Shown here: piece by piece, positions 20,783 through 29,020 of the stretch | Numbering within the stretch: position 1 is the stretch's first letter | Layout: each line of letters starts with the position of its first letter | Assembly: GCA_913058185.1 (NCBI GenBank) | Contig: CAJXQX010000034.1 | Coordinates: forward strand, 1 to 38,251 | Source: an uncultured Verrucomicrobiota bacterium | Lineage (GTDB): Bacteria > Verrucomicrobiota > Verrucomicrobiia > Opitutales > Opitutaceae | Direction of reading: 5' to 3' | DNA length: 38,251 nt | Notes under the pieces: model-generated | The model's database searches: none | What the model was told of the DNA's origin: nothing | What the model saw: the letters and a program-made list of their open reading frames with translations, nothing else | Made by a program: the position numbers and the translations under genes

Positions 20783-20860
20783 GGACGCATAGTCTCAGTT
20801 GGTTAGAGCGCTTCCTTCACACGGAAGAGGTCACAGGTTCGAGTCCTGTTGCGTCCACCA
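20783..20860 (+). tRNA. tRNA-Val (anticodon CAC)
   Basis: The acceptor stem GGACGCA pairs fully with TGCGTCC and is followed by A and an encoded CCA. The anticodon arm is CTTCC-TTCACAC-GGAAG, giving anticodon CAC. The T arm is ACAGG-TTCGAGT-CCTGT. The D arm (GTCTCAGTTGGTTAGAGC) is one base longer than usual, and only CTC/GAG pairs cleanly. The gene decodes GUG valine codons. Confidence 0.95.
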
Positions 20861-26856: not shown

Positions 26857-27966
26857 CTACCAGTTATCCACTGGTCCTCTGGGGACCGGGATGGCTTCGC
26901 GTTGAAACACGGGGTCGTCTTCGTCGCGGAGGAAGGACGCGACCATCGGGTCGGGGGCATACTTCGAAAGCAACACGCCGTCGTCGTCGCAGAATTTTTT
27001 GCGCCACTCGATGAAGTCGGCAACCGCCTGCTCAAAGTCGGCGCGTGAGTTGATCTTGATGATGTCGCGCTTGAAGGGTTTCGACGGTCCGAACCGTTTG
27101 GCATACCACGGTGCAACCTTGCGAAAGAACTTTGCCCCGCGCTCTTCACCATAGAATTCGGCGTAACGCTCGAAGTGAAGTTTCAGCACGCGAATGCGCT
27201 CATTAAAATTTGGTTCAGGAAGTAACTCGCCCGTTTCGAGCAGATGGGCGGTGCGTTTGAAAATCCATGGATCGTAAAATGCCCCGCGCCCGATGCTCAC
27301 TCCGTTGCAGCCGGTTGCGTTCATCATGTGCACGGCGGCCTCTGGAGTGGTCACATCACCATTACCGATGACGGGGATGGTGTTCACCGCGTCGACCACG
27401 GCGCGAATACCGTCGAGATTCACGCGACCGCTGAATCCCTGAGCGCGGGTGCGGCCATGAACGAAGACAGCGGCGCAACCGGCATCCTCCAGCGTTCTAG
27501 CCAAGTTGGGAGCAGTCAGGTTGTCCTCGTCCCAACCCAGACGCATTTTAGCGGTGATAGGGATTTTTACGGCGTCGATCATCCCGCGCACGAGAGCGGC
27601 GGTTTTATCGAGTTCCGTCATCATCGCAGAACCGCCGCCGATGTTGACGACCTTGCGAACCGGGCAGCCCATGTTGATGTCGACGGACTGCACGCCCATC
27701 TCCTCACACATGATGGCAGCGTCGCGCATTTCCTCGGGCACGGCGCCAAAAAGTTGGATGGCGAGCGGGCGATCCTCGGCCGAGGTGGCCACAAGCTTCA
27801 ATGCGGTCCGATTGCGCTCAAGGAGCGAGCGGGCGTTGACCAGGTCAGTGGTCGCCCAGCCCAGTCCGCCAACTTCCCGCACTGTCAATCGCATGGGCAG
27901 GTTGGTATAGCCCGCCAAAGGAGACAGGAACAAAGGAGAGTATAATTCTATCGGTCCGATGCGCAT
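26857..27966 (-). CDS. dusB: tRNA-dihydrouridine synthase (DusB-like)
   Basis: FMN enzyme that reduces uridines in the tRNA D-loop with NADPH. From the ATG at 27966 it is 369 residues, a little longer than average. The start IGPIELYSPLFLSPLAGYTN and the active-site Cys in NMGCPVRKV are typical. The phosphate/FMN loop (VHGRTRAQGFSG, IGNGDV, SIGRGAFYDPW) and a C-terminal helical RNA-binding domain (from ~260) follow. I assign the DusB subgroup with some caution. An ATG at 27987 is possible but lengthens the N-terminus beyond the family norm. A perfect palindrome (28021-28043) lies 55 bases upstream, the same motif as at the HTH gene promoter. Confidence 0.88.
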   Translation of the reverse strand: MRIGPIELYSPLFLSPLAGYTNLPMRLTVREVGGLGWATTDLVNARSLLERNRTALKLVATSAEDRPLAIQLFGAVPEEMRDAAIMCEEMGVQSVDINMGCPVRKVVNIGGGSAMMTELDKTAALVRGMIDAVKIPITAKMRLGWDEDNLTAPNLARTLEDAGCAAVFVHGRTRAQGFSGRVNLDGIRAVVDAVNTIPVIGNGDVTTPEAAVHMMNATGCNGVSIGRGAFYDPWIFKRTAHLLETGELLPEPNFNERIRVLKLHFERYAEFYGEERGAKFFRKVAPWYAKRFGPSKPFKRDIIKINSRADFEQAVADFIEWRKKFCDDDGVLLSKYAPDPMVASFLRDEDDPVFQREAIPVPRGPVDNW

Positions 27967-28020
27967 TACGAATTCATCGCAGAGCATCCCGCACTCATTT
28001 CGCGATTCAACCCTACAATA

Positions 28021-28043
28021 AGTTTAACCATATTGGTTAAACT
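28021..28043. promoter_or_regulatory. Operator copy 1 (AACCATATTGGTT type), upstream of dus
   Basis: AGTTTAACCA (28021-28030), TAT, TGGTTAAACT (28034-28043): a perfect 10-bp inverted repeat in the gap between the HTH gene stop and the dus start. The same core occurs twice in front of the HTH gene. Regulation of dus by that protein is inference. Confidence 0.65.
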
Positions 28044-28063
28044 TCAACCGAGACGGGATGGGT

Positions 28064-28426
28064 TTAGGTGGAGATGTCGAGGCCGGCCCGTCTCTGTTGC
28101 AGCCAGAAGAGGATGCGGAGTAGCGTTTCGGCGTCGGGTACCCGTCGCTCACCGGTAACCCAGTCTGATATGCGCTGAGGCGGAACTTCCAAAAAACGTG
28201 CTAGCCGACTTTTAGCTCCATAGGTTTTCAATTCACCTCTCATCTCCTCAATCACGATGTTCCAAAGCGGCGTGTCATGTCCCGGATTCCGCCGTGGGGC
28301 GGTGGGAGATACTCGGTTTCGTCTTCGAACTTTTTTGGCCTGCCGTAGCGCGAGTTCTGCCGCGGTCACAAAGTCTTCACCCAGGGTGACCCAGATTTTC
28401 ATATCCGAACGATCAAACACACTCAT
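28064..28426 (-). CDS. Small HTH (XRE-like) DNA-binding protein
   Basis: A 120-residue basic protein. The N-terminal ~50 residues (KIWVTLGEDFVTAAELALRQ then KKVRRRNRV) are of unknown function. Residues ~75-115 form a helix-turn-helix (GAKSRLARFLEVPPQRISDW), followed by ERRVPDAETLLRILFWLQ. I associate this domain plan with small regulators found in many copies in Verrucomicrobia. Two copies of a palindromic operator lie just upstream (28436-28452, 28481-28497) and a third lies 3-prime of it, before dus. It therefore probably represses itself and perhaps its neighbours. An internal ATG (codon 9) is an alternative start. Confidence 0.72.
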   Translation of the reverse strand: MSVFDRSDMKIWVTLGEDFVTAAELALRQAKKVRRRNRVSPTAPRRNPGHDTPLWNIVIEEMRGELKTYGAKSRLARFLEVPPQRISDWVTGERRVPDAETLLRILFWLQQRRAGLDIST

Positions 28427-28435
28427 GGACCAACC

Positions 28436-28452
28436 TTAACCAATATGGTTAA
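28436..28452. promoter_or_regulatory. Operator copy 2, at the HTH gene start
   Basis: TTAACCA (28436-28442), ATA, TGGTTAA (28446-28452), ten bases upstream of the HTH gene ATG. It is placed where a bound repressor would block transcription or translation start of that gene. Confidence 0.65.
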
Positions 28453-28480
28453 AAACGTGCGAGGTCGCATTCGGTGAACT

Positions 28481-28497
28481 TTAACCATATTGGTTAA
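28481..28497. promoter_or_regulatory. Operator copy 3, in the divergent spacer
   Basis: TTAACCA (28481-28487), TAT, TGGTTAA (28491-28497). It is the mirror image of copy 2, including the flanking CC and GG, 45 bases away centre to centre. It lies ~83 bases upstream of the divergent DCC-family gene, so one regulator could govern both directions. Confidence 0.65.
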
Positions 28498-28579: not shown

Positions 28580-29020
28580 TTGTCTTGGGAGGTGATCAAT
28601 TCGGCCGAGGCGAAAGAATCTTTGCTGCTCTTCGATGGAGAGTGCGGGCTTTGTCAGGCGCTGATGCGGTTTGTGCTGCGTCGGGATCGTGCCGGTCGAA
28701 TCAAGGTGGCTTCTCTGCAAGGAGTCACGGGTCAGACAATGTTACGCCGGGCCGGGCGGCCGACGCAGGACTTCGACAGTTTGGTATTCTTCCCAGAGAT
28801 CTCCCGTAACGATATTCTGATGCGCACGGATGGAGTGTTCGCGGTGTTCGCGGCCTTACCCGGGGGCTGGAAAACGGTTGGGCGGCTCCTGGGGATGTTG
28901 CCCCAGAGTTTTCGAGATGGCGGTTACCGGATTATCGCGCGAAGTCGTCGCCGGATTTTTGGAGATCCGCGGCCGGACGGGCTGGACGATCCGGCGTGGG
29001 CTGACCGGGTGCTTCCGTAG
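28580..29020 (+). CDS. DCC-family (DUF393) thiol-disulfide protein
   Basis: A ~146-residue thioredoxin-like protein. The family motif DGxCxxC is present near the N-terminus (LLFDGECGLCQALM), followed by RRDRAGRIKVASLQG and the C-terminal YRIIARSRRRIFG typical of DUF393. Members are predicted redox proteins, with no firmly established reaction. The start is uncertain: no ATG is in frame; TTG 28580 is the first possible codon and GTG 28592 the next, with a GGAGG at 28572-28576. The gene is divergent from the HTH regulator across a spacer with two operator copies. Confidence 0.82.
   Translation: MSWEVINSAEAKESLLLFDGECGLCQALMRFVLRRDRAGRIKVASLQGVTGQTMLRRAGRPTQDFDSLVFFPEISRNDILMRTDGVFAVFAALPGGWKTVGRLLGMLPQSFRDGGYRIIARSRRRIFGDPRPDGLDDPAWADRVLP

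Follow-up and report, generated by a model that had tools for sequence, protein, structure and literature searches.

Small helix-turn-helix proteins of Opitutaceae and the bracketing, dispersed palindromes that covary with them

The window, meaning the whole analyzed stretch of 38,251 nucleotides from the genome of an uncultured Opitutaceae bacterium (G000; 4.09 Mb in 159 contigs), carries a gene for a small helix-turn-helix (HTH) protein between dusB and a DCC1-like gene, together with three perfect copies of TTAACCANNNTGGTTAA, in which the arms TTAACCA and TGGTTAA enclose TAT or ATA (Table 1). A scan allowing up to three mismatches returned the same three copies and none further, and shuffled windows gave 0.50 matches on average and 2 at most, with three reached in 0 of 100 shuffles. 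The original prediction, made from the letters alone, had been of three operator copies belonging to the regulator; all three exist and are perfect, and the first begins at 28024, three bases away from the predicted 28021. Their placement was predicted correctly: ten bases separate the 28436 copy from the HTH start codon at 28426, the 28481 copy lies in the divergent spacer towards the DCC gene, and the 28024 copy lies between the regulator and dusB. The window also contains a tRNA gene (20783-20857, plus strand).

Table 1. Positions of the HTH gene, its neighbors, and the palindromes within the window.
Feature	Position	Strand	Description
dusB, tRNA dihydrouridine synthase	26857..27987	-	TIGR00737 above cut-off
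Palindrome 1, AAGTTTAACCATATTGGTTAAACTT	28020..28044	none	25 bp, with 17-bp core at 28024-28040; interval between HTH stop and dusB start
HTH gene	28064..28426	-	120-aa Cro/XRE-like protein; query that seeded the family search
Recognition-helix codons (residues 83-91)	28154..28180	-	Predicted; part of the palindrome-covarying stretch
Palindrome 2, TTAACCAATATGGTTAA	28436..28452	none	Ten bases 5' of HTH start codon
Palindrome 3, TTAACCATATTGGTTAA	28481..28497	none	HTH-DCC spacer
DCC1-like thiol-disulfide oxidoreductase gene	28580..29020	+	PF04134; divergent from HTH gene

The HTH protein has Pfam matches to HTH domains, all of them below the curated cut-offs (HTH_3 with 20.5 bits against 23, YdaS with 23.7 against 30), and no Pfam match to an HUH/Y1 transposase domain up to an E-value of 1. 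Its AlphaFold model contains helices only (residues 6-36, 53-65, 71-79, 83-91, and 99-113), with average pLDDT values of 81-96 across 10-residue blocks from residue 51 to 120. A compact helical HTH fold is predicted (mean pLDDT 81.6), in which helices 71-79 and 83-91 would be the usual HTH contact elements. Many of the displayed Foldseek matches are HTH regulators, all at an E-value of 0.047 or worse, and there are fold likenesses to EDF1/Mbf1, HipB, and restriction-modification controller proteins. The top sequence-profile matches are human DUX4 homeodomains (E 0.004), and prophage Pfl 6 Cro is matched at 0.047.

Bracketing of the HTH genes and covariation with the recognition helix

The HTH family is nearly limited to one family of Verrucomicrobiota, the Opitutaceae. 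One search with the single protein found no relative; at an E-value of 0.001, homologs occur in 31 of 95 genomes, all 31 within the 61 genomes of the same family and none among the 34 others. A profile search of 288 genomes of the phylum, in which up to 15 candidates per genome were scored, found at least 16, with 14 belonging to the same family and 2, both weak, to the same class. Among named records, 64 loci were found, mostly labeled Opitutaceae, Opitutia, Opitutae, or an Opitutaceae genus, with some labeled merely Verrucomicrobia and one Akkermansiaceae. Two homolog loci (L042, L136) were left out of the family set; alignment A1 used 60 of 65 (leaving out L041, L042, L051, L134, and L136), and alignment A3 left out 3 of 45 listed proteins. 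Besides the window gene, G000 has three further homologs on other contigs. The closest homologs from other genomes are those of G004 (71% identical) and G006 (50%).

Most of the HTH genes lie between two copies of the same palindrome. Bracketing was defined as palindromes within 300 bp on each side of the gene that are identical to each other at 16 or more of 19 positions. Among 117 unique homologs, 114 have 250 bp on both sides (three at contig ends were dropped), and 79 of these 114 are flanked on both sides by matching palindromes, with 35 failing the test. The same test was passed by 1 of 143 control genes of up to 800 bp, and that one (L152) has homolog coordinates. The palindrome versions vary among homologs, examples being TGTCACGTAWTACGTGACA, TGTCACCTAWTAGGTGACA, TGTCAACTAWTAGTTGACA, ATGTTCGTAWTACGAACAT, and AGTAACCTAWTAGGTTACT. 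The upstream palindrome is centered a median of 39 bp ahead of the predicted start codon (quartiles 17-77) and the downstream one a median of 29 bp past the stop. With palindrome copies on both sides of its gene, the HTH protein most likely represses itself, and autoregulation is a fair inference from this arrangement. The two members of a bracketing pair show no preference for inverted orientation (40 inverted, 39 direct), and for these pairs we set aside REPIN-type inverted pairing; elsewhere in the genomes, closely spaced pairs look mostly inverted by eye.

The palindrome version also changes with the protein. A half-site could be assigned for 94 of the 117 homologs, and across these 94 an arginine at residue 85 goes with G at base 4 in 74 of 85 cases, compared with 0 of 9 for any other residue (Fisher 1.6e-7); proline at residue 83 goes with A at base 8 in 7 of 9 cases versus 7 of 76 for arginine (Fisher 2e-5), and lysine at residue 83 with T at base 9 in 7 of 7 versus 6 of 76 for arginine (Fisher 4e-7), all of these numbers being inflated by shared ancestry since related homologs are not independent. 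High mutual information falls mainly at residues 72, 82-88, and 95, which belong to predicted helix 2, the recognition helix, and the following loop, and residues 49, 76, 101, and 111, outside the recognition helix, are also found within the top 25 pairs. On a tree built without the helix, each trait has two or three well-supported independent pairs, none of the traits running opposite on average, but these numbers are too small to reach significance. The original prediction that the motif gives a binding site to an uncharacterized regulator family is thus strengthened on three counts: the bracketing by each homolog's own version, the covariation with recognition-helix residues, and the restriction of the exact window motif to 3 of 95 genomes, namely the window's own (26 copies in G000) and the two other genomes whose homologs come closest (23 in G004 and 4 in G006, in assemblies that are 82 and 69% complete).

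Dispersed palindromes and their neighbors

All of the 26 exact copies of the 17-bp motif in G000 have TAT or ATA at the center, and the reversed-pattern control gave 0. Abundance of the motif without relation to the regulator, which would have counted against the original prediction, applies by half: the motif is abundant, but its sites are tied to the regulator family. With up to two mismatches G000 has 41 sites (control 1), among which 7 are of the distinct class GTAACCATWATGGTTAC and one is GTAACCAATATGGTTAC. These form a second palindrome class in G000, to which no bracketed HTH gene is assigned; the three that were read (L100-L102) have an outer A...T. Of 58 genomes, 25 contain the pattern GTMACSTAWTASGTKAC (control 0); these all belong to the same family, and 0 of the 20 genomes outside it have the pattern. 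Counts are higher in family genomes that have a homolog (non-zero in 19 of 21) than in those that lack one (6 of 17; Mann-Whitney on counts, 9e-6). All 20 sites in G001 are GTCACCTAWTAGGTGAC, and G003 has 19 GTCACGTAWTACGTGAC sites, 7 of GTCACCTAWTAGGTGAC, and one mixed; the single HTH homolog found in G003 is bracketed by a GTCACC version despite the 19 GTCACGTAWTACGTGAC sites. On the single-contig chromosomes of G001 and G003, site positions show no departure from a uniform distribution (KS p 0.46 and 0.22). The flanking bases outside the 19-bp core have more in common among G004 sites than among G000 sites: in 22 aligned G004 sites position 11 is always A, with G often at 10 and 14 and C at 15.

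The sites lie mostly outside genes. Gene calling relied on a simple script of our own that scores codons and misses short genes, the window HTH gene among them, so that the three window sites are counted there as one divergent gap. By this script, 86-90% of loci in G000, G004, G001, and G003 are called coding, and sites inside predicted genes number 0 of 26, 1 of 23, 4 of 20, and 6 of 27, respectively. Some sites overlap a predicted gene end (L016, L068), and one match inside a gene (L083/L080), in a stretch of conserved protein, may be chance. Convergent, divergent, and tandem gap regions with sites number 5/4/7 in G000, 5/5/7 in G004, 2/4/8 in G001, and 0/1/16 in G003, against intergenic length shares, in the same order, of.19/.40/.41,.25/.33/.42,.18/.42/.39, and.16/.13/.71. 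Divergent gaps are not favored, and in G000, G004, and G001 sites fall in convergent gaps about as often as expected from gap length; in G003 there is no convergent site region and 16 of the 17 intergenic ones are tandem. Of 30 proteins encoded near sites that were scanned (28 from G000, 2 from G004), 26 match Pfam with no theme, the matches including NUDIX, YgjP, class II tRNA synthetase, alcohol dehydrogenase, hemB, cysS, recQ, an AlkZ-like protein, radical SAM, and a TonB plug protein.

Among the best 30 of 39 genomes with a dusB match, the HTH gene is directly upstream of dusB in G000, G001, G002, G004, G005, G007, and G028, and by coordinates it is also upstream of dusB in G006, which makes 8 genomes in all. 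The dusB match beside the G006 HTH gene (G006:C4:28121-28924) has two internal TAA codons. In the same best 30, and at the similarity threshold used, palindromes are found upstream of dusB in 6 of the 7 HTH-dusB loci (not in G028) and between HTH and dusB in 4 of the 7. The versions differ, with a TTTAACCAT half in G000 and G004, TGTAACCAT in G001, and TGTCACCAT in G002, G005, and G007. In this set 23 dusB loci lack the HTH gene, and 1 of them (G023) has a family-type palindrome upstream, indicating that the palindromes go with the HTH gene; two more have upstream palindromes that are GC-rich and unrelated. The predicted compact circuit governing dusB and the DCC gene finds no support, given this near absence from HTH-less dusB loci and the 26 genomic sites whose neighbors share no common theme, and control of these two genes is not the main point.

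Palindrome versions at orthologous positions

Some site neighborhoods are shared between genomes. Orthologous genes are common to 11 of the 23 G000 site loci and to G004 site loci, with L081 and L083 among the 11 holding near-exact sites only, and neighbors are shared with G000 sites, despite other palindrome versions, by 5 of 18 G001 loci (L140, L144, L148, L149, and L153) and 3 of 22 G003 loci (L158, L163, and L174). In the comparisons of gaps among G000, G001, and G003, which were read by eye, the gap at L149, L153, and L144 appears to be the same as in G000. In the gap 3' of a radical SAM gene, G000 has a AGTAACCTA-type palindrome (L030 1449) and G004 a TTTAACC-type one (L074 9418).

The clearest series of versions at one position lies inside a reading frame. 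Among the best 30 of 52 genomes with a match, a 3beta-HSD/epimerase-like gene has a palindrome in one loop in 10 orthologs, 8 of them centered at codon 231 and the others at 226 and 233, with eight half-site versions; in the remaining orthologs of this set the loop has nothing or apparent degenerate remnants. In eight genomes the epimerase palindrome could be compared with that of the resident HTH gene, and the two are alike at 16-19 of 19 positions (sum 144 of 152, permuted mean 123.6), a fit reached in 4 of 40,320 permutations; G025 and G031, with 2 of the 10 palindromes, were left out of the test since they have the epimerase palindrome and no detected HTH homolog. The worst of the eight fits (16 of 19) is that of G003 to its GTCACC-version homolog. 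A DEAD_2 helicase gene has a palindrome in one loop in 4 orthologs, in three versions, among the best 30 of 45 genomes with a match; for these the resemblance to the resident HTH palindrome is not significant (4 of 24 permutations as good). The apparently empty epimerase loops suggest that copies arise by insertion, and the resemblance to the palindromes of resident proteins suggests later maintenance. With somewhat less than even confidence, we propose that an Opitutaceae genome may hold several mutually distinct HTH-palindrome families, whose positions would be inherited, even in reading frames, and whose sequence would be rewritten within a genus to match whichever family protein resides there; this would amount to a new class of intragenomic partnership.

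Possible origins and roles of the palindromes

The reading that we favor, at a probability of roughly 55%, is that these are autoregulated DNA-binding HTH proteins with dispersed cognate sites that would have been inserted and then maintained, and that most likely serve a positional role. The small HTH protein, probably as a dimer, would bind a 19-bp palindrome composed of two half-sites of 9 bp each, and from the bracketing copies it would repress its own gene. The other copies would have entered as short insertions, some between genes and some in linkers of coding sequences, and would be preserved in versions that resident family proteins can bind; as the recognition helix changes the half-sites would change along. 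The dispersed copies may serve as protein-bound landmarks, for bridging or insulation, in the manner of sites for nucleoid-associated proteins. A positional role is most likely because most copies have no clear promoter preference and no common neighbor function, an argument from negative evidence. Several observations count against the favored reading: the 35 of 114 homologs that are not bracketed, the small number of independent pairs on the tree, the high-scoring residues outside the recognition helix, the helicase result, the poor match in G003 between its main palindrome version and its one HTH homolog, the epimerase palindromes of G025 and G031, the tandem placement of G003 sites, and the outer-arm pairing in G004.

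It is unlikely that the HTH protein is a conventional transcription factor with a regulon, whose dispersed palindromes are operators that coevolved with its specificity. Specificity and operators are known to coevolve in LexA-type regulators, and the avoidance of coding sequence, the site loci shared by G000 and G004, the mostly tandem gaps of G003, where operators could lie, and the conserved HTH-dusB order would all fit a regulon. However, in G000, G004, and G001 convergent gaps contain sites about as frequently as gap length would give and divergent gaps are not used beyond expectation, some sites overlap gene ends, several lie inside reading frames, and the neighbors lack a common function. 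The XRE/Cro-C1 autoregulators are alike in being small HTH proteins with palindromes adjoining their own genes, and the weak YdaS, HTH_3, and Cro matches point to them; here, by contrast, all matches are weak, there is a long N-terminal helix, and tens of sites are dispersed near unrelated genes.

We doubt to a similar degree that the palindromes are selfish elements of the REP/REPIN type that an unseen transposase has spread, the HTH protein being a passenger or regulator, and that re-insertion at hot spots produced the different versions. REP/REPIN sequences of RAYT (TnpA-REP) systems are short dispersed palindromes, mostly outside genes, that flank a dedicated gene and form several families per genome (PMC3733652, PMC8266576), and the palindromes described here are likewise dispersed mostly outside genes, flank the HTH gene, and come in several families. 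In both the epimerase and the helicase genes, some alleles of the loop are filled and others apparently empty, which, with the extra flanking bases common to G004 sites, also agrees with selfish spread, as do two versions separated by 45 bp within a single predicted reading frame of G006 (L094, 2956 and 3001) and two that lie side by side in L099. The partner gene differs, since that of REP/REPIN systems encodes an HUH Y1 tyrosine transposase, whereas the helical HTH protein has no recognizable catalytic domain; the palindromes here are also near-perfect, have an odd A/T center, and lack the inverted preference in bracketing pairs. Moreover, re-insertion alone explains neither the centering of 8 of 10 epimerase palindromes on the same codon nor their resemblance to those of the resident proteins. 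REP/REPIN-RAYT repeats and XRE/Cro autoregulators are the closest known kinds; the system described here departs from the first in that its partner gene encodes no transposase, and it scores below the family cut-offs of the second. O. terrae is rich in GTAG repeats (PMC3733652); the cores listed here have no GTAG.

RNA hairpins, acting as terminators or stability elements independently of the HTH protein, are a far less probable explanation. As RNA, the window copies are predicted to fold well (-10.9, -5.3, and -11.9 kcal/mol, with -24.3 for one extended copy), and arm pairing at positions 10 and 12 from the center is above shuffled values in G000 and G004, in G004 at several positions out to about 21. 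This outer-arm pairing in G004 favors a hairpin or recent copying, and replication template switching could also produce perfect arms. In G000 the arms pair little above shuffled values beyond about position 13, and we do not take the long outer arms to prove an RNA structure. Hairpins would predict neither bracketing of one gene family, nor covariation with a recognition helix, nor presence only with close homologs. A phage origin was likewise set aside, with 7 stretches having an exact match in viral_contigs.

Returning to maintained sites for an autoregulated HTH protein, two known systems offer partial parallels. E. coli fis is autoregulated, lies in a dusB-fis operon, and encodes a nucleoid-associated protein (PMC4751926). 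The window gene likewise encodes a small DNA-binding protein, if our reading is correct, beside dusB and has many chromosomal sites (26) with no regulon theme; it differs in its gene order (HTH-dusB), in the high specificity of its sites, and in having three other homologs in G000. No relation to Fis was found in the Pfam, sequence-profile, or Foldseek matches of the HTH protein, and the dusB-fis parallel is an analogy, not homology.

The second parallel is with Rickettsia palindromic elements, in which palindromic insertions are tolerated in frame in protein-coding genes. Those elements are much longer; the palindrome described here spans about six residues, and its sequence is related to a resident DNA-binding protein.

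Among the titles and abstract openings listed in searches of openly licensed PMC papers, none describes this HTH-palindrome system. The family supplies specificity variants of a small HTH protein by the dozen, and with an apparent target beside each gene they would make a recognition code readable and directly testable. They also make it testable how the specificity of a DNA-binding protein and that of its tens of scattered sites shift together over short evolutionary distances. In addition, they name a likely protein partner for a family of palindromic repeats in a phylum that has been little studied.

The order of the recQ and AlkZ-like genes differs between G000 and G004 (L024 2452-6598, L067 400-3987). 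We set aside cassette movement or site-specific recombination as the source of this rearrangement, since identity between the AlkZ-like genes is only about 60% and they may therefore be paralogs. In G003 (L163) sites lie between recQ and an AlkZ-like gene, and in G004 palindromes flank the AlkZ-like gene on both sides.
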